Below, one piece after another: positions 4,144 to 14,431 of a DNA stretch of 64,000 bases. A program made the position numbers and the translations under genes. The notes beneath the pieces were generated by a model. That model was not told the DNA's origin and did not search any database. It saw only the letters and a program-made list of their open reading frames with translations. Position 1 is the first letter of the stretch. Each line of letters opens with the position of its first letter. Source of the DNA: Clostridia bacterium (GTDB lineage: Bacteria > Bacillota > Clostridia > Christensenellales > Aristaeellaceae); the NCBI GenBank assembly GCA_017404985.1, contig JAFRBK010000016.1, forward strand, positions 1-64,000, in the 5' to 3' direction.

Positions 4144-4812
4144 TCAAAATAGCTCTCCACCCTCCATCTTAAATATCCTGTCCGCATATTTCACCGCGTC
4201 ATTTTCATGGGTGACAATCATCACACCCTTCTTTTCCTCATGGGCATAGGAAGCCAAAGCAGATAAAACCCTTTCAGTATTTTCGTCATCCAGGTCCCCG
4301 GTGGGTTCGTCAGCAAACAATACCTCCGGCTCCTGCACCAGCGCCCGGATAATGGCCATTCGCCGCAATTCCCCTCCGGAAAGCTCCTTCGGGAACGCGT
4401 TTTCCAGTTGCCCGATCTCAAACATCTCCATCCACCGGCGGGCCTTTTCCGCCGGCGCTTTCCGTCCGTACAGCCTTTCCGGAAGCAGGATGTTTTCCAT
4501 CACGGTCAGCGTATCCACCGCGCTTCTGGCCTGGGGAACGACGCCGATCCGCTCGTTCCGCAGGCGGGAAAGCGCCGCGTCCTTCAGGCGGTACAGGTCG
4601 GTGTCCCCCAGCCAGACGCTGCCCTCCGTCGGCTGCAGAATGCCGGAAAGCATATTCAGCAGCGTGGTTTTCCCGGATCCGCTCCTCCCCATGAGCACCG
4701 TCACGGTTTCCGGATGGATTTCCAGGCTCAGCGGAGAAACGGCATAGAAGTAGTTGGCGCTCCCTGTTTTGCGAAAAAAGGTTTTGCTGATGTTGTCAGC
4801 CCGAAGCAGCAT
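4144..4812 (-). CDS. ABC transporter ATP-binding protein, second module of the iron operon
   Basis: A 222-residue nucleotide-binding subunit of the MacB/LolD type: Walker A GRSGSGKTT, signature LSGGELRR, Walker B VLFADEPTGDLD. The ATG at 4812 sits one base after the permease stop and has GGGAGGG before it. A longer frame from 4899 would overlap the permease by 86 bp and is not needed. It is the last gene of the nine-gene operon and should power the permease encoded at 4814-6016. MacB-type ATPases drive mechanotransmission rather than classical import, so the substrate and direction are open. Confidence 0.88.
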   Translation of the reverse strand: MLLRADNISKTFFRKTGSANYFYAVSPLSLEIHPETVTVLMGRSGSGKTTLLNMLSGILQPTEGSVWLGDTDLYRLKDAALSRLRNERIGVVPQARSAVDTLTVMENILLPERLYGRKAPAEKARRWMEMFEIGQLENAFPKELSGGELRRMAIIRALVQEPEVLFADEPTGDLDDENTERVLSALASYAHEEKKGVMIVTHENDAVKYADRIFKMEGGELF

Positions 4813-4813
4813 G

Positions 4814-6016
4814 TCAGTTTCCCTCCCTGAGCGCGGTTCCCGGCTGAACCCTGCTGAGCCGCCGGGCCGCAAAGGCGCTGGCGAGGGCGGAAACCGCAAT
4901 GGATAAAAGAACGGTCCCCGCCGCCAGCAGCAGAATGGTGCCGATGCCGGGGAATAAATACGGAAGCCCCAGGCTGCTCTCGATCAGGGCGGAAAAAGAG
5001 AATACGCCGATCGCGGCCAGGCCTGTTCCGGCAATGCCTCCGCCAAGCCCGCACATGGCGGATTCCAGCAGCGCCATCCTGCCCAGCATGCCCCTGGATG
5101 CGCCGATGAGGCGGAGCACGGCAAATTCACGGGTCCGTTCCCGGACAACCAGCGTGTAGGCCAGCAGAAGAATGATGAAGGCCAGGATCCAGATCACAAC
5201 GGTCATGGCGGACACTGTCCGGCTGACCCCGGCCAGGCTGTCCGAAACGCCGGTAATCATGGAGCGGGTTCGGACGGCGGTCACCTTGCGGAGTTTCCCG
5301 GTCAGGGCCGTGTTCACCGTATCGATATCATACCCGTCCTTCACTTTGATATACACCGCGGATATAACGGAGTCGTCCCCGCTGGCAATTTTGTGGCTCA
5401 CGCCTTTGGCCTCCGCGGCCGCCAGCAGGGTGTCCATCGTATGCATATTGCAGTAGACGGCAATGTCCAGCCCGGTCCCGGTGGGCTCCAGCTGCGCCAC
5501 CACCTTGCAGCGCTGTTCGTAGATCCGGATGATCTCGCCGATTCCGGCTTCCACCCTGCAGCCGACGACCACGTCCATGTCCCCCATGTCCCCGGTCAGG
5601 CTCCGGGCAATCCAGGGCTGGACGGTAAAGTCTTTGGCCGGGTCAATGCCGATCACCTGGATTTTGATGGAGCAGCAGTCCGCCTTCAGGGAAGCCAGAA
5701 AGGTCTGCGGCGCAGCCTTCTCTACCCCGGGCACTTCCAGGGCTTTGTCCGCCACGGCAGCGTCCATATAAAAGGCACCGGTGGTTCCCTGCAGGAACAT
5801 GTTCTGGAAGCTGACCTTGCTCTGGGCTTCGGAAGGCACCAGAATGATGTCGGCCCCCAGCCGGGCTTCCAGGCTCTGAAGCCCGGTGCGCAGGGACAGG
5901 ATCACCACCGATCCTCCGAAGACCGCCAGCGCCAGAAAAGCGGTCAGCAAAACCAGGGCGGCGGTCCTTCCCGGTTTCCGGGCCAGATTTTTCAAAGACA
6001 AGGGAAGGATTTTCAT
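4814..6016 (-). CDS. FtsX/MacB-type ABC permease, second module of the iron operon
   Basis: A 400-residue membrane protein with one N-terminal membrane helix (about 17-40), a large extracytoplasmic domain (about 45-265) and three C-terminal helices, the usual MacB topology. The cytoplasmic loop RERTREFAVLRLIGASRGML is the coupling segment typical of FtsX-like permeases. It is followed immediately by its ATPase and preceded by 7 bp after the DUF4418 gene. This second permease-ATPase pair is an addition to the core P19 gene set known from Campylobacter. Substrate unknown; iron handling or export of a chelator or reductant are possible. Confidence 0.85.
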   Translation of the reverse strand: MKILPLSLKNLARKPGRTAALVLLTAFLALAVFGGSVVILSLRTGLQSLEARLGADIILVPSEAQSKVSFQNMFLQGTTGAFYMDAAVADKALEVPGVEKAAPQTFLASLKADCCSIKIQVIGIDPAKDFTVQPWIARSLTGDMGDMDVVVGCRVEAGIGEIIRIYEQRCKVVAQLEPTGTGLDIAVYCNMHTMDTLLAAAEAKGVSHKIASGDDSVISAVYIKVKDGYDIDTVNTALTGKLRKVTAVRTRSMITGVSDSLAGVSRTVSAMTVVIWILAFIILLLAYTLVVRERTREFAVLRLIGASRGMLGRMALLESAMCGLGGGIAGTGLAAIGVFSFSALIESSLGLPYLFPGIGTILLLAAGTVLLSIAVSALASAFAARRLSRVQPGTALREGN

Positions 6017-6023
6017 GATGGGT

Positions 6024-6425
6024 TCACGCTCTTTCCTTCTTTTCCCGGAAGCACATCACGGCCCCGCACAGCGCGGCCAGCCCGGCAGCGGCGAAAAGAA
6101 TGGTCATGGCGGGCTGCATCACGGCCCGGCAGTGCATGCTGCTCATTTTGCACAGGGAAATCAGGGTTCCGGGCGTCAGGATGCCCAGAATGCTGCTCAG
6201 GCACATGGCCAGATACAGCCCCAACCGGGCTCCCCGCAGCAGCACCGCCAGCATGGCGAGCACCGAGAGCAGCATGCCCAGTCCCAGCAGCGCGCGGCTC
6301 GCCCAGTGGCAGGCCCCGACCGTGCCGTCCTCATGGACCCAGGGCCCGAGGAATGAAACGCTTCCGACCGAGATCACCAGGGCCAGGGCAAAAACGGCGT
6401 ACCCGGGAATAATCTGCTTTTTCAT
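6024..6425 (-). CDS. DUF4418 family membrane protein
   Basis: A 133-residue protein with four predicted membrane helices and the cysteine and methionine pattern LCKMSSMHC between helices 2 and 3, as in DUF4418. The family has no established activity but recurs next to ABC permeases. It sits inside the iron operon between the first ATPase (11 bp upstream) and the second permease (7 bp downstream). The Cys and Met residues would be exposed near the membrane surface and could bind metal or take part in thiol chemistry; that is inference. Confidence 0.75.
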   Translation of the reverse strand: MKKQIIPGYAVFALALVISVGSVSFLGPWVHEDGTVGACHWASRALLGLGMLLSVLAMLAVLLRGARLGLYLAMCLSSILGILTPGTLISLCKMSSMHCRAVMQPAMTILFAAAGLAALCGAVMCFREKKERA

Positions 6426-6436
6426 GGCGGTATCCT

Positions 6437-7111
6437 TTACTTTCCGAAGTTCTCGTTAATGACTTCCCGTGCGATGCGGCCGTGCTCCAGCACGATGGTC
6501 CGCTGGGCCGCCTCCGCCACTTCCGGGTCGTGCGTGACCACGATCAGCGTGGTACCTTCCCGGTGCAACTGGGCAAACAGGTCCAGGACGATGTTTTCAT
6601 TGGCTTCGTCCAGGTTGCCGGTCGGCTCGTCCGCCAGGATCAGCTCCGGATGGTTGATCAGCGCCCTGGCCACGCATACCCGCTGCTGTTCGCCGCCGGA
6701 AAGCTGGCTGGGCAGGTGCTTCGCCCTCTCCCGCAGCCCGACGCGCTCCAGCGCTTCCAGCGCCTCCTGTTCATCCGGCATGGAGTGGTAGTATTGGCTG
6801 ACCATTACGTTCTCCACGGCGGTCAGGTAATTCACCATGTGGAACTGCTGGAAGATCAGGCCGATCTTGTCCCGCCGGATATCCGTCAGGTTTTTGCTGC
6901 TTTCCTTGCTGATGTCCACGCCGTCCAGCAGCACTTCTCCCTTGGTGGGCTTGTCCATGCAGCCGATGATGTTCATCATCGTGCTTTTCCCGCTGCCGGA
7001 AGGGCCCATGATCGCGACCCATTCCCCCTGGTCCACATGCAGGCTCACATTGTCCAGCGCCTTCAGTTCCCCGTATATTTTGGAAACATTTTTCAGTTCA
7101 AGCAGGCTCAT
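6437..7111 (-). CDS. ABC transporter ATP-binding protein, core P19 module
   Basis: A 224-residue MacB-type ATPase: Walker A GPSGSGKST at about residues 36-44, signature LSGGEQQR, Walker B LILADEPTGNLD, and a switch histidine in VVTHD. It is directly downstream (2 bp) of the FMN-domain permease and corresponds to the single ATPase of the Campylobacter p19 gene cluster (Cj1663). It probably serves the two permeases at 7114-9879. Confidence 0.9.
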   Translation of the reverse strand: MSLLELKNVSKIYGELKALDNVSLHVDQGEWVAIMGPSGSGKSTMMNIIGCMDKPTKGEVLLDGVDISKESSKNLTDIRRDKIGLIFQQFHMVNYLTAVENVMVSQYYHSMPDEQEALEALERVGLRERAKHLPSQLSGGEQQRVCVARALINHPELILADEPTGNLDEANENIVLDLFAQLHREGTTLIVVTHDPEVAEAAQRTIVLEHGRIAREVINENFGK

Positions 7112-7113
7112 GG

Positions 7114-8574
7114 TTATTCTCCTTTCAGGACGATCGCGGGATCGATCGCCACAGCGCGTTTGATGGGAAGCAGGCAGCTCAGCGCGGCAATCAGCATGGA
7201 TATGATCATGGTGATGGGCAGCAGCAGCGGCTGGAACGTGATGGAGGAACCGAACACGTTCACGCTGACGACCTGGGCGAAGACGAAGCCCAGGATCCCG
7301 CCCAGGATTCCGCCCAGCAGGCCGAGAAACAACCCTTCTCCCAGGAACTCCGCGCGGATGGAGCCGTCGGACGCGCCGAGGGCCTTGCGCAGGCCGATCT
7401 CCCTGCGGCGCTCAGAAACGACCGCCATCATGGTCGTTGAAACGCAGATCATGGTCAGCAGAAGCACCACCAGCGTCACCAGGAAAACCAGCGCGGTCAG
7501 CTTTTCCAGCACCGAGGCTTCCGAGCGGGTCACGCGCTTCACCAGGCGGGCCTGGACGGTGTCGTGTTCGTCGGAAATGGCGGCCGCGTATGCCTCCAGC
7601 TGTTCCGCGGACGCGGAAACGCTCAGCTCCACCACGTCCAGCTGTTCGGACCCGGTCAGCGTCTTCATGTCGTCCAGGGACAGAAAGACGTAGTCCTCCT
7701 CTTCGCCGCCCGTCGTCAGAATGCCCGTGACCGTAAAGTTCAGGGTTTGCGGCCGGGCGGCCTTTTCCGTTTTCCGGGCGGTGTTCACCGCCTGCACCAC
7801 CGCTTCCGAGGTAACGGTTGCGCCCGAAAGCGCATCCACGTCCTCCCCCAGCGCCAGCGGCAGCGTTTTCCCGATGAACTGTTTCAGGAAATTGTCATCC
7901 TCCGCGGCCCGCCCGCCGTATTCCGGCGTCTGGGTGCCGGCGTCGATTTCAAGGGAGGCAATGGCGGCCTGGCCGTCCAGTTTGACGGTCACATAAACGG
8001 TCCCGCCGCCGAAGCCTTCCGCGCTTCCGGCCAGTTCGGCGTTCGGAGTCCGGCTTTCTTCCGGGCTGGCCTGCTCCCCGGAATCGGTGGGCTGATAGGT
8101 CAGCTCCATCGTGGATCCGGTTTTCACGCCGATGTTGTCCGCGATATTCTTCCCCACCAGCACCTCCCGGGTGTTCTCCGGATAGGCTCCCTCAATGCTG
8201 AAATACGGGCTGGTTTTGGGCACCTGGGAAAAATCGGTTCCGGCCGCGGTAAAGGACTGCTGCCGGGAGGTCATGTCCAGCCGGACATACCGGTAGGGCG
8301 TCGCCCCGATCAGCTCGTCCTGCGGAATGGTCTCCAGCACCCCCGCCAGCTGGTCCCTGTTCAGCGCCGCCCCTTCTTTGGGCAGGAGCAGCATATTGGC
8401 CCCGTAGGAACGGAACTGGGCGCCCATCTGCCGGGGCACGTCCACATAAATGGTCACCAGCCCGGCCAGAATCGTGGCCCCGATCCCGATCGACAAAAGC
8501 GCGATCATCATCCGCGAGCGCCTGCGCAGGAGGGACGCGGTAATCATGCGCAGGAACATTCTTCTCTTTGTCAT
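7114..8574 (-). CDS. FtsX-like ABC permease with an inserted FMN-binding domain
   Basis: A 486-residue permease with one N-terminal helix (about 20-42), a large outside domain and three C-terminal helices ending SVNVFG...IAALSCLLPIKRAVAIDPA, typical of MacB/FtsX. Inside the outside domain, about residues 187-265, is a FMN_bind domain (PF04205 type): it opens GFGGGTVYVTV, continues with TPEYGG and FLKQFIGK, and closes DALSGATVTSEAVVQAVN. SGAT (250-253) is the motif whose Thr carries covalent FMN in RnfG and NqrC, attached by ApbE. A redox flavin built into the ABC permease suggests reduction of ferric iron or transfer of electrons as part of uptake. No ApbE gene is in the window. Domain call is firm; the function is inference. 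Confidence 0.85.
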   Translation of the reverse strand: MTKRRMFLRMITASLLRRRSRMMIALLSIGIGATILAGLVTIYVDVPRQMGAQFRSYGANMLLLPKEGAALNRDQLAGVLETIPQDELIGATPYRYVRLDMTSRQQSFTAAGTDFSQVPKTSPYFSIEGAYPENTREVLVGKNIADNIGVKTGSTMELTYQPTDSGEQASPEESRTPNAELAGSAEGFGGGTVYVTVKLDGQAAIASLEIDAGTQTPEYGGRAAEDDNFLKQFIGKTLPLALGEDVDALSGATVTSEAVVQAVNTARKTEKAARPQTLNFTVTGILTTGGEEEDYVFLSLDDMKTLTGSEQLDVVELSVSASAEQLEAYAAAISDEHDTVQARLVKRVTRSEASVLEKLTALVFLVTLVVLLLTMICVSTTMMAVVSERRREIGLRKALGASDGSIRAEFLGEGLFLGLLGGILGGILGFVFAQVVSVNVFGSSITFQPLLLPITMIISMLIAALSCLLPIKRAVAIDPAIVLKGE

Positions 8575-8586
8575 AGCTTTCCTTTC

Positions 8587-9879
8587 TCAGCCTCCGTGCA
8601 GGACTTCCGCGGGCCGCAGGCGCAGCACCATGCGGATGGCGGGAAGGCTGCCCGCAATGGTCACCAGGGCGATCAGGCCGGCCACGATCGGCGCGACCTT
8701 CGGATCCATGTCAATGGAGGACCCGAAGACGCTCTGGCCGATGAGCTGCGCGAAGCCGAAGCCCAGCAGGTATCCCGCGGCAAATCCCAGCAGCGCCGTG
8801 ATCAGGATTTCGGTCATCACCACGCCCGTGATGGAGCGGTCTTTGGCGCCGATGGCCTTCAAAAGGCCGATCTCCTTGCTGCGTTCCATGACGGAGGCGG
8901 TCACCAGGTTGGAGATGCCCAGCGCCGACCCCACCAGGCTCAGCGCGGTGATCAGGATCATCAGCAGCTTCGTTTTGTCCAGGATGGTGCCCTCGCTTTC
9001 CGCCACTTTCCGGACGGCGGAAGCCACCGACCCGGTAATCACTTCCTGGATCTGGTAGCAAATGGCGGAAACATAGGCCGTGCAGTACCATGTCTCATAG
9101 TCGCGGCTGCTGAGCGCGGCGGGGTTTTTCGCCGCCCGGCGCGCCAGCTCATTGTCCGGCGTGGTCAGCGCGGATACCTCGATGGAAGCCACTTTGTTTT
9201 CCCGGTCCGTAAGCGCCTGCACCAGGTCCAGCGTGGCATAGATCTGTTCGTCCTCGTCCCCGCCGGCGTCAAAGATGCCGGCAATCGTCACGTCCTTTTC
9301 CCCGTGGCTTGCCTTCAGATGGATCACGTCTCCGGCATGCCAGCCCTGCCGCTGCGCCAGCAGCGCCCCGGCTATGACCTCGCCGGAGGCATTTTCGTCC
9401 TTTTCATCCAGCCAGCGGCCTTCCGTGATGTCCCACCAAGAACGCATGCCGACAATGCCGGCATCCAGGCTTTCCCCGGTTGGCAGGTCCAGATGGTGGT
9501 TGAACCAGGAGCCGGTCATGCCGGCCGTTCCGCCGTCCGGAAGCGTGACCTGGGTATCCAGAAAGGGCGTAAAGTCTACGATGTTGAACGCCCAGAAAAT
9601 CGTTTTCAGCTTCCCCAGTTCATCCTCCCGCAGGTAGGCCGTGTTCAGCTCCGCGCCCTCGCCCACGTCATAGATGTCGGAAAGCAGGGAGGAATCCTTC
9701 GGCTTGACGACGATGTTGGCCCCGTAGTTTTTCAGTTCCTTGTTGACTTTTTCTTCCACGCCCAGCACCACGTTCAGCATGCCCGTGGCCAGGGAGGCGC
9801 CCAGGGCAATGGTCAGGGCGATCAGCAGCATTTTTCCCTTCTGGTGAAAGAGCACGCCGCGTATCATTCGAAAAAGCAT
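8587..9879 (-). CDS. FtsX-like ABC permease, core P19 module
   Basis: A 430-residue MacB-type permease: N-terminal helix at about 17-38, outside domain to about 300, then three helices; coupling loop MERSKEIGLLKAIGAKD. The segment WYCTAYVSAICYQIQEVI with two Cys is distinctive of the P19-cluster permease (Campylobacter Cj1661-like). The start at 9879 has GGAG upstream; an extension to 10050 would run into the DUF2318 gene. It lies 24 bp after DUF2318 and 13 bp before the FMN-domain permease, and the two probably form a heterodimer with the ATPase at 6437. Confidence 0.86.
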   Translation of the reverse strand: MLFRMIRGVLFHQKGKMLLIALTIALGASLATGMLNVVLGVEEKVNKELKNYGANIVVKPKDSSLLSDIYDVGEGAELNTAYLREDELGKLKTIFWAFNIVDFTPFLDTQVTLPDGGTAGMTGSWFNHHLDLPTGESLDAGIVGMRSWWDITEGRWLDEKDENASGEVIAGALLAQRQGWHAGDVIHLKASHGEKDVTIAGIFDAGGDEDEQIYATLDLVQALTDRENKVASIEVSALTTPDNELARRAAKNPAALSSRDYETWYCTAYVSAICYQIQEVITGSVASAVRKVAESEGTILDKTKLLMILITALSLVGSALGISNLVTASVMERSKEIGLLKAIGAKDRSITGVVMTEILITALLGFAAGYLLGFGFAQLIGQSVFGSSIDMDPKVAPIVAGLIALVTIAGSLPAIRMVLRLRPAEVLHGG

Positions 9880-9902
9880 GGTCCCGTCTCCTTTGGCATG
9901 TT

Positions 9903-11198
9903 TTATCTGAATTCCTTCTCGCCGGCCTTCAGGTCTTCCAGCCTGAACACGAGATTGCCGTCTTTGACTTCGTACGCCAGGGGGATCGGATTGCATCCGC
10001 CCTTGAATCCGATCGTGTTGATGTTCATCACTACGTCGCAGCGTTTGCACACAATCTGCCCGTTCCGCTCAAAGTATCCCGCGTTTCCGCATACTTCACA
10101 GGCATCCAGCCCCACGCCGTAACTGGCGGAATTGGGTTTTTTCACCACGATCCAGCGCACGTCGATATTCTTGTCGGTCCGGTATTCGAAGCGGTGCAGA
10201 TGCCCGTCGTTCACCGCTTCGGCCGGCACCAGAATCACGCCGGCATCCTGGTCCACGGTGTAGTTTTCGGGCGCGGACAGCTCCACCTGTTTGGTATCGT
10301 TGGTTTTGACGACGGTCAGAATCACGGTAAACAGCACGATGCAGGCCAGGGTTCCCGCCGCGATTCTCCGCCACCGCCGGTTCCGCGCCTTCAGTTTGCG
10401 CAGCTGGGCGGGATTGTCATACTTCTCCCGGAGGATCGTTCCCTGCCGGAAGAAAAACACAGCCAGCAAAGCGGCCAGGACGGCGGAAACCCACAGGAAC
10501 AGCATGGAATAGTCGGCGGTGAACATCATCCAGTTTCCGATCCACCCGTATGCTTCATCGCTGTATTTCACCGGCCAGCCCAGCCATTTGGCCCGGTTCA
10601 CCCAGGGCACAAAGAAGCGGCCGAAGCAGTAGGCGGCGAAAACCCACAGCTGCAGATTCAGGATGGAAGGAACCCAGGCATACGGTTTTATTTCCAGCGC
10701 GCAGTGCGAAAGCAGGCGCGAATAAATCAAAAGCAGGATCAGCGCGCCGAGCCATCCGGCCATGCGCACAAGATAATAGGAGGAGAAATATCCCTGCCCC
10801 ATGGTATTGAAGCTGAAAGGGTGCAGAAGCACCCCGGGCAGCGAATAGAAAATCAGAACGGCAGACAGAAGCGAGCCGGCAATGCTCAGAAAAACAGGAC
10901 CCGGACGGGATGCCTGTTCCTCCTTTCTGCCGCAGCAGAAGGTCAGGATCAGGAACAATACCGTCAGTGCCATCACAACTACATAGATATAATGGTTCCA
11001 GTGGCTGGAAATAATCAGCTTGGTATTGTATTTCACAATGGCAAGGGCCACGGAAGCAAGGACGCCGGCGCAAAGCCCGGCCCCGTGGATCACGCGCCCC
11101 TTATGCCCGGCGGTGCGGGAAAGCATGGCATGCATCAGGGTGGTATAGGTTACGGGAAGGAAAAGGTCCTGGATCACCATCCAAAGATACTTGAACAC
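9903..11198 (-). CDS. DUF2318 membrane protein with C-terminal Cys-rich domain
   Basis: A 431-residue protein. About eight hydrophobic helices fill the first 240 residues, one more helix follows near 275-300, and the remainder faces outside. The C-terminal domain is DUF2318, with CEVCGNAGYF, CKRCDVVMN, TIGFKGGCNPIP, five Cys likely to bind a metal or Fe-S centre. It is the counterpart of Cj1660 in the Campylobacter p19 cluster and is found with FTR1 and P19 in many bacteria, where it is thought to take part in electron or iron transfer at the outer face of the membrane. Here it sits between P19 and the permeases, in the classical order. Confidence 0.87.
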   Translation of the reverse strand: MFKYLWMVIQDLFLPVTYTTLMHAMLSRTAGHKGRVIHGAGLCAGVLASVALAIVKYNTKLIISSHWNHYIYVVVMALTVLFLILTFCCGRKEEQASRPGPVFLSIAGSLLSAVLIFYSLPGVLLHPFSFNTMGQGYFSSYYLVRMAGWLGALILLLIYSRLLSHCALEIKPYAWVPSILNLQLWVFAAYCFGRFFVPWVNRAKWLGWPVKYSDEAYGWIGNWMMFTADYSMLFLWVSAVLAALLAVFFFRQGTILREKYDNPAQLRKLKARNRRWRRIAAGTLACIVLFTVILTVVKTNDTKQVELSAPENYTVDQDAGVILVPAEAVNDGHLHRFEYRTDKNIDVRWIVVKKPNSASYGVGLDACEVCGNAGYFERNGQIVCKRCDVVMNINTIGFKGGCNPIPLAYEVKDGNLVFRLEDLKAGEKEFR

Positions 11199-11300: not shown

Positions 11301-11852
11301 TTACCACTCTTTGACGAACTTCCAGCCGGTCCAGGTGGCGGTCAGGGGCTCGGTCCAGAAGCCTTCCTTCGCTTCGACGCCGGTCTCCGCGTCCACGTGG
11401 AGCAGGTAGCCGTTCTCTGCCGGGCTCTTGATGTACAGGGTGATGGTGTATTCGCCTTCGGCCAGCGGAATGTTGTTTCCGTAGTGCGGGCCGTCGGAAG
11501 CCGCCATGGGCATCATGGAACCGGAGTAGACTTCTTTGCCTTCCTTGTCCTTGATCACGAAATCAATGCTCAGATAGGGCACCCAGCCGTCCACCGGGAA
11601 ACCGTAGGGGTTCTCTTTGGCGGTCAGGTCTACTTCGATATGCAGGTCAGAGCCTTCCTTGGGGGTCGCGTTCTCGGCGGGAGCCATATCCACGGGCTGG
11701 AAATACACCATGGCCATGGTCATGAAACCGACGTCCTGTTCTCCTTCGACACCCAGTTCATATTCATCGAAACCGGCTTCTTCCGCCAGGGATACGGCGG
11801 AAACAGCAAAGAGCATCATCGCGGCCAGCAGCAGGGCAACCATCTTTTTCAT
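11301..11852 (-). CDS. P19/Tp34-type iron-binding protein, secreted
   Basis: A 183-residue protein with a signal peptide (MKKMVALLLAAMMLFAVSAV, cleavage near SLA-EE) and a P19/Tp34 domain (PF10634). Metal-site segments are visible: MTMAMVYF, DGPHYGNN and YLLHVD, giving the Met and His ligands known for Campylobacter P19, which binds Cu and Fe and is needed for growth at low iron. There is no lipobox Cys, so attachment to the cell is not explained. The start at 11852 follows GGAGG; the upstream ATG at 11870 overlaps the FTR1 stop. The iron role is well supported by the family and neighbours. Confidence 0.9.
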   Translation of the reverse strand: MKKMVALLLAAMMLFAVSAVSLAEEAGFDEYELGVEGEQDVGFMTMAMVYFQPVDMAPAENATPKEGSDLHIEVDLTAKENPYGFPVDGWVPYLSIDFVIKDKEGKEVYSGSMMPMAASDGPHYGNNIPLAEGEYTITLYIKSPAENGYLLHVDAETGVEAKEGFWTEPLTATWTGWKFVKEW

Positions 11853-11866
11853 GTCAGGGTTCCTCC

Positions 11867-13741
11867 TCATTTCTTAGGTTCTTTGGATTCCTTTGGGTCT
11901 TTGGGTTCCTCGGGGTCCTTGGGTTCTTTTTCCTCTTGGGGTCCGTTTTGTATATCCGTCGCGGTAGACGCGGGGCATACCGCGGGGGTATCGGGATTTG
12001 CAAGCTGTGCCTTCAGGGCGTTGATCTTTCCCCGATAGTGGGCCATCATGAAGGTCACCAGCAGGATAATGGCCAGAATCAGCTGGGGCACCAGCGTCTC
12101 CAGCCAGGGATAGATGCCGAAGATCTGGATCACGTCGTTTTCCGGAATGCCGGGCACGCGAAGCGTCAGGTCAAACACGTTCCCTTCTGCCAGCTCCTTG
12201 ATTCCGCTGCCCAGGAAGCTGACGCACATCACAGCCATCAGAATGGAGGTGGCGGTAAAGAAGACTTTGATCGGCAGTTTGATCGACAGTTTCGTGATCG
12301 CCAGGTAGACGAACACCAGCACGACGCAGCCGACGCCGAAGCCGGCCCAGACCATCCCGGGGTTGCCTTCGCTGAGCATCGGCTGATAGAACAGCACCAC
12401 CTCCGCGCCTTCCCGGAATACGCTCAGGAATGCCGTAAAGGCGAGGGCAAAGGAGCTTCCCTGTTCCACCGAGGACTGGACCTTTCCGTCGATAAACCGG
12501 GTCCAGCTGGCAGCTTCCGCCTTGGAGATCATCCAGTTGCTGACATAGAACAGCACGCATACGGCGATCAGCGCGGTGATGCCCTCGATGATCTCCTGCG
12601 CCAGGCCGGCCCCGACGAAGGCCTGCTTGGCCCAGGAAAGGACCGCGGCGGCCGCGAAGCTGGCGGCGACGCCGGCAGCCGCGCCGATATAGACGTTCTT
12701 CACGCTGCGGCTGTTTCCGCTCTTCACCAGGTAAGCGATGATGGCGGCGATCACGAGGATCGCTTCCAGGCCTTCCCGGACAATGATGCCGAAGGCCCCC
12801 AGGAAGGTCAGCAGCTTCGGGTCGCTCTGCTTTTCTTCCGCTGCTTCCCCGGCTGCGGCGGCTTCAGTGCCGGTCCCGGCTTCGGCCGCCTTTGCCTCCG
12901 CGTTCTTGGTGTCGATCACTTTGGCGTATTTCAGGATGTTGTTTTTGGCCTTGTCCGTCGTGGTGCGGTATTTGTTTTTCTGGTATTTCTCCTCACCGGA
13001 GGCCACCAGGCTCCGCAGGTCGGAAAAGCTCTTTTCCGCGGACTGCCTTTCTTTAATGGAAAGCTCCGTGTAGATCGCGTGGCTCAGGCCGGATTCTTCG
13101 TATACCGAATAGTAGGCGGTATTCAGGTTGTCCGTGGCGGCGCCGAAGTCCTTGTCCAGGTAGGCCATGTACGCCGTGTCCAGCAGTTCCTTGACCAGCG
13201 TCGCCGCTTCGTACCAGCTCGCGTACTTCGCTGCGGCATTGGGATCGGCGGAGTATTCCGGATACGGATCCGTGGCGGTGCGCTCGCCTCGCTTGTAGTA
13301 TTTGGTTTCGCTCTGCGTGCCGCCCTGCATGGCCGCCAGCTTGTTCCCGTCCTCCCGGATCATGGCTTTCAGCTTGGCCAGCGCGCTGCGGACGGAGATT
13401 CGGGTTTCGGTGGTTTCGTTCTCTTTTTTGACGGCGGCCTTGCAGGCGGAAAACTGCATCTCCACCGCGTTCTTGCGGTTCCCGCTGATATAGCTCATGG
13501 TCTGCCGTTCAAATCCCGTGGTCTCGTACACCCGGAAATACGCGTTGCTGACATGGTTGTAAGCCGTGTCGGGATCCCCGTCCAGATAGGCCTCAAAAGC
13601 GGCGTCCAGAAACTTGTCGATCTCGTCCGCCGCATCCGCCCAGCGGGTGGAAGCCGCATCTTCGCCAAAGCATCCCAGGGGAAATGTTAACAGCACAATC
13701 ACCAGAGCGCATACCACTCTGAGGAGAGCCTTCTTTTGCAT
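11867..13741 (-). CDS. FTR1/EfeU-type iron permease with extracytoplasmic N-domain
   Basis: A 624-residue protein. After a signal sequence comes a helical outside domain (to about 325), then seven membrane helices with both REXXE iron-transport motifs, VREGLEAILV and FREGAEVVLF, the hallmark of FTR1 iron permeases. The C-terminus is a charged Lys/Glu/Pro tail (KEPKDPEEPKDPKESKEPKK). It is the first gene of the operon; P19 follows 14 bp later. FTR1 with P19 makes a high-affinity iron importer (FetMP/P19 systems). The start at 13741 has GGAGG ten bases upstream; a start at 13762 is possible but has no ribosome site. Confidence 0.92.
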   Translation of the reverse strand: MQKKALLRVVCALVIVLLTFPLGCFGEDAASTRWADAADEIDKFLDAAFEAYLDGDPDTAYNHVSNAYFRVYETTGFERQTMSYISGNRKNAVEMQFSACKAAVKKENETTETRISVRSALAKLKAMIREDGNKLAAMQGGTQSETKYYKRGERTATDPYPEYSADPNAAAKYASWYEAATLVKELLDTAYMAYLDKDFGAATDNLNTAYYSVYEESGLSHAIYTELSIKERQSAEKSFSDLRSLVASGEEKYQKNKYRTTTDKAKNNILKYAKVIDTKNAEAKAAEAGTGTEAAAAGEAAEEKQSDPKLLTFLGAFGIIVREGLEAILVIAAIIAYLVKSGNSRSVKNVYIGAAAGVAASFAAAAVLSWAKQAFVGAGLAQEIIEGITALIAVCVLFYVSNWMISKAEAASWTRFIDGKVQSSVEQGSSFALAFTAFLSVFREGAEVVLFYQPMLSEGNPGMVWAGFGVGCVVLVFVYLAITKLSIKLPIKVFFTATSILMAVMCVSFLGSGIKELAEGNVFDLTLRVPGIPENDVIQIFGIYPWLETLVPQLILAIILLVTFMMAHYRGKINALKAQLANPDTPAVCPASTATDIQNGPQEEKEPKDPEEPKDPKESKEPKK

Positions 13742-13772
13742 GCCCTTTCTTCCTCCGTTCATGCCATCAAAC

Positions 13773-13820
13773 GTTAGCTCCTGCTAACTTGGGTGTCGGC
13801 TGACGTTAGCAGTTTCTAAC
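13773..13820. promoter_or_regulatory. Two palindromic operators before the iron operon
   Basis: Site 1 is GTTAGC-TCCT-GCTAAC (13773-13788), a perfect 6-4-6 palindrome. Site 2 is GTTAGC-AGTT-TCTAAC (13805-13820), one mismatch, 32 bp away or three helical turns. A TAGAAT -10 box for the minus strand lies at 13830-13835, so both sites fall at or just after the likely transcription start, a position that suits a repressor. The half site TTAG is reminiscent of DtxR-type boxes. The regulator is not known. Confidence 0.6.
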
Positions 13821-13940
13821 TCAGTGGAAATTCTATCACACATTTCAGAATAGCGTTATCCTGTTATTGACTTCTTGAAACGAAACAATTGTCTGATATC
13901 GACCTTTTCATTTTTTTGTAGTGAAATAATAGAAAAATGG

Positions 13941-13983
13941 GTTAGACTGTGCTAATATATCTTTCGGATTAGATCCAGCTAAC
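13941..13983. promoter_or_regulatory. Two more copies of the palindrome before the AraC-type gene
   Basis: GTTAGA-CTGT-GCTAAT (13941-13956) and ATTAGA-TCCA-GCTAAC (13968-13983) share the 6-4-6 form of the sites at 13773-13820. They end about 30 bp upstream of the regulator gene at 14015. Four copies across one divergent region point to joint control of the iron operon and the AraC/ABC operon by a single factor. Confidence 0.55.
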
Positions 13984-14014: not shown

Positions 14015-14431
14015 ATGAAATCCGAAATCGAAAAGGATCCGTTTCAGACAGCCGCACCGCGTGAAGCCAGGAGGAAGAGAACCGGAGGGGAAAACCTTGC
14101 ACAGGAGGCTTCCGAGTATATTGAAGCCCACTTCAGGGAAAAATTCTCCCTGCAGAAAATGGCGGACAGCCTCTATATCAATGGAAGCTATCTGCTGAGG
14201 GCCTTTAAAAAGTATAAAGGCTATACGCCCCTGGTATACCACAACCATATCCGCTGCGAACGGGCCAAAGAACTGCTGGCCCGTACCGATGAGGAAATAT
14301 CGGAGATCGGCGAGGCGGTGGGCTTCGTTTCCTCCGCCCACTTTTCCCACGTGTTTAAAAAAACCGAGGACTGTACGCCAACAGAGTACAGAATCTCCCA
14401 CCGCGTTTACCGGGAAGAGGAAAAGGCCTGA
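14015..14431 (+). CDS. AraC-family regulator, DNA-binding domain only
   Basis: A 138-residue protein that is essentially one AraC double helix-turn-helix (about residues 28-130): LQKMADSLYINGSYLLRAFKKYKGYTP for the first HTH region and ISEIGEAVGFVSSAHFSHVFKK for the second. There is no sensor domain, so any signal must come from another protein or from a metal. AGGAGG precedes the start. It is divergent from the FTR1 iron operon and 70 bp upstream of an ABC ATPase gene, and probably controls one or both. The RNA start was not identified. Confidence 0.85.
   Translation: MKSEIEKDPFQTAAPREARRKRTGGENLAQEASEYIEAHFREKFSLQKMADSLYINGSYLLRAFKKYKGYTPLVYHNHIRCERAKELLARTDEEISEIGEAVGFVSSAHFSHVFKKTEDCTPTEYRISHRVYREEEKA

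Follow-up and report, generated by a model that had tools for sequence, protein, structure and literature searches.

Does an ABC permease in an iron-uptake operon carry a flavin domain of its own, and if so, what might a flavin do on such a transporter? The question arises from one gene in a 64,000-nucleotide stretch of DNA (hereafter the window; positions 1 to 64,000 of contig JAFRBK010000016.1, assembly GCA_017404985.1). The original prediction, made from the sequence without database searches, described the gene product as a MacB-type permease with a full FMN-binding domain at residues 187–265, encoded within a P19/FTR1/DUF2318 operon.

A flavin domain in a Fet-type operon

The gene, perm2F (7114..8574, minus strand), encodes a FetC-like permease of 486 residues. 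A profile search of the reading frame bears out the embedded domain: residues 190–266 match FMN_bind (PF04205) with 45.2 bits (E = 1.5e-11; cut-off 22), and residues 365–479 match the FtsX C-terminal permease domain (PF02687) with 79.1 bits. In a six-frame search of the genome the domain scores 49.1 bits and is one of four FMN_bind matches. Based on the profile searches and alignment, the domain proper covers about residues 187–268 (7771..8016, minus strand). No NCBIfam model exceeds its cut-off for perm2F.

The nearest solved chain to the domain is 8P2B (phmmer E = 7.8e-5), followed by RnfG (E = 0.031). 8P2B is domain 1 of CbFMN4, from a multi-flavinylated protein, in which FMN is bound covalently to Thr67, Tyr11 stacks and Thr37 contacts flavin N5 (PMC10339131). 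In the sequence alignment these three residues pair with Thr253, Phe188 and Thr216 of perm2F, respectively. Thr253 (codon 7816..7818, minus strand) lies within the motif LSGATVTS (residues 249–256) and is the predicted site of the FMN phosphoester. Covalent flavinylation of perm2F is highly probable. The domain and acceptor motif are the same as those of RnfG/NqrC and the multi-flavinylated proteins (PMC10339131), but those are electron-pump subunits or secreted strings of domains, whereas perm2F is an ABC permease. The genome also contains one gene for the flavin transferase ApbE (PF02424, 291.9 bits), the search for which had been proposed along with the domain; it is located elsewhere in the genome. 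Within the genus, 40 of 45 genomes have an ApbE match, and the N-terminus of ApbE resembles a signal peptide by eye. Among the 19 genus genomes with a fused permease, one (G709, 73% complete) gave no ApbE match.

The predicted setting was likewise confirmed. The genes all lie on the minus strand, none more than about 100 bases from the next, beginning with an FTR1/FetM-like iron permease (11867..13762; 631 residues; PF03239, 89.3 bits) with two REXXE motifs, REGLE and REGAE, identified by eye. Next come a P19/FetP-like iron-binding protein (11301..11870; 189 residues; PF10634, 159.4 bits) and a FetA-like membrane protein with an FtrD-like (DUF2318) domain (9903..11198; PF10080, 103.2 bits), whose CxxC-x13-CxxC-x14-C pattern, read by eye, fits the published motif of the C. 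jejuni protein (PMC6083913). The FetB-like permease perm1 (8587..9879, with a likely ATG start at 9879; PF02687, 76.4 bits, and PF12704, 52.8 bits, scored on 8587–9885) has no FMN domain and precedes perm2F, which is followed by a FetD-like ATP-binding subunit (6437..7111; 224 residues; PF00005, 126.2 bits). The last three genes encode a DUF4418 protein (6024..6425; PF14387, 54.3 bits), a third FtsX/MacB permease, perm3 (4814..6016; PF02687, 57.1 bits; PF12704, 38.8 bits), and a second ATP-binding subunit, ATPase2 (4144..4812, with a likely ATG start at 4812; PF00005, 112.4 bits on 4144–4899). perm3 and ATPase2 belong to a second ABC module.

Judged by its six genes in Fet order, the operon is a Fet-type (FetMP-FetABCD) iron-uptake system. 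The FetMP-FetABCDEF system of C. jejuni shares these six genes and their order (PMC6083913, PMC10783030). There, two separate thioredoxins, FetE and FetF, complete the set, whereas in the window the flavin domain resides in the second permease and the DUF4418/ABC module comes after. This module (4144–6425) also flanks the operons of two class-mates, L026 and L027, both with a separate FMN gene. The module was not detected near the unfused operons L177–L179 of the same family.

Position, distribution and origin of the insert

A PDB sequence search with perm2F returned MacB (3.9e-20), LolF (3.5e-16) and LolE (1.5e-15), and YtrF is also homologous. What upholds the label 'MacB-type' is the FtsX domain, these PDB matches and an alignment with LolC; MacB_PCD is absent from perm2F at E 0.001 in the profile search, which detects it in perm1 and perm3. 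LolC-like permeases are not, to our knowledge, defined by MacB_PCD.

The inserted segment comprises about 110 residues (about 163–273; 7756..8088, minus strand), as delimited by the alignment with 16 unfused homologues and by hhalign with LolC, and falls in a short variable stretch of the permease. In the 16 six-gene P19 operons from other genomes, the second permease spans 373 to 402 residues between stops, has no FMN domain and is about 85–115 residues shorter than perm2F. With hhalign (97.2–98.7%), perm2F residues 139–160 pair with E. coli LolC 145–166 and residues 274–284 with LolC 178–188. The 113 perm2F residues between these blocks face LolC 167–177, a loop that is the least certain part of the alignment. 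LolC recruits LolA through its Hook, residues 167–179, without which trafficking fails (PMC10865981), and the alignment thus suggests that the insert sits at the Hook position. LolCDE and MacB share permease homology with perm2F, but Lol moves lipoproteins, and no redox domain was found in the Lol/MacB papers and sequences examined.

An insert at a partner-recruiting hairpin would also be expected if the domain served for docking or sensing, for instance as a redox switch gating the ATPase, with flavinylation secondary. We regard this as very unlikely. The flavin-site residues are invariant, beyond what a mere surface would call for: among 99 aligned fused proteins, of which about ten are duplicates, Gln215, Thr216, Gly220, Asp247 and Gly251 occur in every row and Thr253 in all 98 ungapped rows (it is gapped in one), and residue 188 is Phe in 68 rows and Trp in 31. 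Furthermore, the genes whose place the domain takes contain, as far as Pfam shows, FMN_bind alone (L022, L147).

The acceptor motif is retained almost throughout the fused group. The 112 loci that we collected, in which genome and named records overlapped, reduce to 97 distinct proteins over their last 200 residues, 93 fused and four unfused, and the GA[TS] acceptor motif ([S/T]GA[S/T]) is kept in 92 of the 93 fused ones, several of them with TGAT variants. In the exception, L099, an in-frame deletion starts within the SGAT motif and runs to where the insert ends (L099:7900–7920), which represents either a real loss or an assembly collapse in the metagenome record. In ten pairs of perm2F with a relative, with some dS values near saturation, dN/dS of the FMN domain (0.10–0.41) is similar to that of the surrounding extracytoplasmic domain (0.10–0.38), higher than that of the membrane part (0.03–0.14) and lower than that of the linkers in nine of the ten pairs.

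The source genome is a draft of 52 contigs, 85% complete, in which a chimeric assembly or a chance similarity could have produced the fusion. The recurrence of fused frames in 18 other genus genomes, in all 80 named loci (the best of 579) and in 109 family genomes rules out such an origin and leaves it a negligible probability. Within the genus, P19 was matched in 24 of 45 genomes. Twenty of these fell among the 37 genomes screened for the fusion, and 19 of the 20 (19 of the 37) have the fused permease, one of them matched in two pieces; in the twentieth the contig stops inside permease 1. The remaining four P19 genomes (G733, G734, G737 and G739) are all fused. The other 21 of the 45 genomes, including three of the 13 best assemblies, lack a P19 match, and the Fet/P19 system is thus dispensable.

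At the family level, 113 of 300 genomes, in 14 of 50 genera, match the permease, down to 59% identity; by coverage and frame length 109 are fused and four unfused. Each of the three genera with unfused members in this search also holds fused ones, so both kinds of operon have probably moved between relatives. An order-wide sample gave seven matches in 347 genomes, of which six are fused, all from Aristaeellaceae, and one is unfused. Insert-bearing frames were present at 80 of 80 loci from named GTDB relatives, shortened in L099; these loci are the most window-like of 579 and give no measure of how frequent the fusion is. Where their titles state a site, it is a compartment of the ruminant gut. 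P19 itself was found in 17 of 398 genomes of a phylum-wide sample and in four of 291 of a class-wide sample, the source genome included in both. The distant comparison set drawn on here, which is additional to the 112 loci above, has 18 loci, 16 with all six genes and two (L025 and L029) without; one of the 16 other P19 genomes of the phylum sample (G039) was only partly retrieved.

In a permease tree of 47 fused and 17 unfused rows, computed without the columns of the insert, a single branch with support 98/98 separates the fused permeases from the rest. The corresponding branch has support 100/100 in a tree of 31 fused and 13 unfused rows, again without insert columns, that includes the four unfused family members. 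Both supersede an earlier tree in which these columns were kept. Thus, one insertion event suffices to account for the fused permeases, with the long unfused branches in the larger tree as a caution.

The source of the inserted domain is a separate matter. Leaving fused proteins aside, BLAST pairs every one of 105 fused domains (duplicates included) best with a multi-FMN protein, in a comparison set of 42 multi-FMN, nine separate and seven RnfD-G domains sorted by length and locus. This test is confounded by kinship, the multi-FMN rows coming from close relatives and the separate ones from other families. When four separate genes from the same family were added, the separate FMN genes of P19 operons formed a group of their own (100/99) with the fused domain outside it. 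An AU test on 92 columns did not reject a single clade of fused and separate domains (p = 0.46). Overall, these comparisons neither support nor reject the idea that the inserted domain was taken from the operon's own separate FMN gene.

The separate FMN gene and known Fet systems

The first six Fet genes are in constant order in 33 species, and the product of the seventh varies by phylum: most Proteobacteria have a thioredoxin, and Actinobacteria, Firmicutes, Spirochaetes and Synergistetes have an FMN-binding protein (Liu 2018, PMC6083913). An FMN-binding gene is also present in 260 P19 clusters (Meheust 2021, PMC8238504). In the window, the gene that follows the ATPase gene, in place of a thioredoxin or FMN-binding seventh gene, encodes the DUF4418 protein. 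We counted this neighborhood in the 76 of 93 distinct fused operons whose sequence includes the ATPase gene and continues for 700 bases or more past it. None of the 76 has a separate FMN_bind gene within 1.5 kb of the ATPase gene, and in 65 of them a DUF4418 gene adjoins it. The unfused permeases nearest to these, four from the same family (two of them nearly identical) and one from the same order, present the opposite picture: at all five loci (four of four distinct) a separate FMN gene lies directly 3' of the ATPase gene. The insert and the separate gene are thus mutually exclusive in these sets, and the pattern looks like that expected of a functional replacement. The absence of the separate gene is the best argument for the proposed function of the inserted domain.

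Farther away the association loosens. Later versions of a home-made FMN profile (the first, built from four domains, found two) detect a separate FMN_bind gene in eight of the 16 distant unfused operons; in seven it immediately follows the ATPase gene, and in one it lies 395 bases further on. The other eight show no FMN_bind gene beside the ATPase gene, and flavin is therefore not universal in the Fet system.

Systems already described contain most of these elements. In B. breve, bfeUO-sifABCDE encodes a permease of the FTR1 family, a pair of FtsX permeases and an ATPase, together with SifE, which is membrane-associated and has an FMN-binding domain (PMC5449479). The Meheust clusters, like the window, combine P19/FTR1 with FMN_bind (PMC8238504). 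The difference is that in SifE and the unfused operons the FMN_bind domain is a gene of its own, whereas the operon in the window has it embedded in the permease and lacks the separate gene. We found no description of an FMN domain embedded in a FetC-like permease in the literature searched, supplements being outside that search, and none appears in the available text of PMC8238504, PMC11334425, PMC5449479, PMC6083913 or PMC10783030. The words 'ABC', 'FtsX' and 'permease' are absent from the main text of PMC8238504, as are 'FMN' and 'flavin' from that of the 2023 C. jejuni paper (Richardson-Sanchez 2023, PMC10783030). It is possible that the fusion has been listed before without comment. The original prediction of a new kind of mechanism was overstated, flavin being already known in the P19 system, but the embedding in a FetC-like permease does appear undescribed in the literature searched. 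What is known, then, is the Fet system, the FMN domain and their association; what is new is the physical arrangement within a permease. If the reading set out below is true, flavinylated electron transfer extends to an ABC permease; the system itself is not new.

Proposed electron transfer and candidate regulation

Our preferred reading, which we hold with about as much belief as doubt, is that this is a Fet-type operon in which the separate FMN protein has been replaced by the domain of perm2F, whose ApbE-attached FMN would pass electrons to the iron on P19. It draws on the domain and its motif, the alignment position, a tree compatible with one origin, the absence of the separate gene, and the ApbE and RNF genes in the genome. 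On the outer side of the membrane, ApbE would link FMN to Thr253. This flavin would take electrons from the membrane side, either from the Cys domain of FetA, from RNF with its RnfG-type FMN or from multi-FMN proteins, and would pass them to P19-held iron, letting the iron through FTR1. FetBCD would then be no substrate conduit; rather, it would be a MacB/Lol-like machine that moves the redox domain with ATP. Of these steps, flavinylation is likely, the direction of electron flow and iron as the acceptor are what we infer, and ATP-driven movement of the flavin is speculative, by analogy with MacB and Lol.

Published work on C. jejuni bears on this reading from both sides. Deletion of fetA, fetB, fetC, fetD or both thioredoxins impairs growth in an iron-dependent manner, and FetE and FetF are redundant (PMC10783030). 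The authors propose that FetE/FetF relay reducing power, likely from FetBCD, through FetA, and call the function and substrate of the FetBCD module unclear (PMC10783030). A thioredoxin, a separate flavin protein and a flavin built into FetC thus occur in three branches, which fits a redox partner working on the ABC complex. The flavins of SaFMN3 have a potential of –184 mV (PMC10339131), low enough for many ferric complexes, so that reduction of ferric iron appears plausible. Against reduction, the C. jejuni protein FetE is similar to thiol-disulfide oxidases, and in cell extracts oxidation was promoted by FetEF (PMC10783030). Also counting against the preferred reading are L099, which lacks the acceptor, G709, which has no ApbE match, the absence of flavin from part of the Fet systems, and the dispensability of the system as a whole.

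A stronger version assigns FetBCD itself the role of an ATP-driven electron shuttle. The flavin would swing between a membrane donor and P19 with ATP gating the transfer, and in other Fet systems the Hook position would serve as docking site for the stand-alone thioredoxin or FMN protein. We consider this version unlikely.

More generally, a fusion at the position where a homologue recruits its partner suggests where the Fet redox partner acts, and suggests that the ABC transporter itself is the place of electron transfer in iron uptake. perm2F offers a single testable protein for that partner.

Electrons could also flow the other way, the flavin taking them from Fe2+ on P19 and coupling the oxidation to passage through FTR1. 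Multicopper oxidases couple iron oxidation to passage through yeast Ftr1 in this manner, and FTR1-family permeases are often paired with oxidation. Such a role is distinctly unlikely here, however, in that a related FMN protein at –184 mV would be a poor acceptor from Fe2+ unless P19 strongly shifts the iron couple, and the ruminant gut compartments in the titles of relatives make an anaerobic life likely.

Alternatively, the flavin might make no contact with iron and instead keep the cysteines of FetA/DUF2318 or of another partner reduced, substituting for FetE/FetF. A flavin of the RnfG type would then have to pass electrons straight to thiols, for which we know of no precedent. The CxxC-x13-CxxC-x14-C pattern of the FetA-like protein in the window is consistent with such a substitution, as is the seventh-gene slot that thioredoxins and FMN-binding proteins share across phyla (PMC6083913). 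On balance we rate it as fairly unlikely.

As for the donors that the preferred reading, reduction of P19-held iron, would need, the source genome offers several candidates. RnfD and RnfG are encoded in one frame of 525 residues on C40 (L036:6882–8459), with PF03116 at residues 8–303 and PF04205 at 429–513, and frames of 467–560 residues with a C-terminal FMN domain occur at the loci of six relatives. The genome also encodes RnfC, two Rnf-Nqr membrane proteins and an RnfB-like Fe-S protein. A 900-residue FAD_binding_2 protein with two FMN_bind stretches is likewise found on C40 (L166:1797–4499), and in relatives long proteins show as many as five matches to the FMN domain, some of them weak. 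RNF and the FAD_binding_2/multi-FMN proteins are possible donors, tied to the permease only by the shared domain type.

Upstream of the operon are four TTAG-N6-CTAA palindromes (13774..13982, starting at 13774, 13806, 13942 and 13969). They are the only copies in the window (0.24 expected), and the whole genome has eight sites. This sequence resembles a DtxR-type site, a reading that found no support: at the four sites elsewhere in the genome, inspection by eye showed no neighbouring gene recognisable as an iron gene. A Fur box upstream of FTR1 was also rejected, with 11 of 19 matches in the window compared with a mean of 11.2 in shuffled sequence. At least one palindrome is present in 69 of 80 fused upstream regions (the window and duplicates included) versus two of 17 unfused ones, and the same loci, duplicates included, contain 157 copies in about 30 kb of upstream sequence versus 31 in the remaining 1.22 Mb. 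The palindromes are thus a possible operator. Divergent from the operon is a gene for an AraC-type HTH protein (14015..14431, plus strand; 138 residues; PF12833, 74.1 bits), a homologue of which adjoins 56 of 76 fused loci with room for it (duplicates included). This protein is a candidate local regulator that may read the palindromes.
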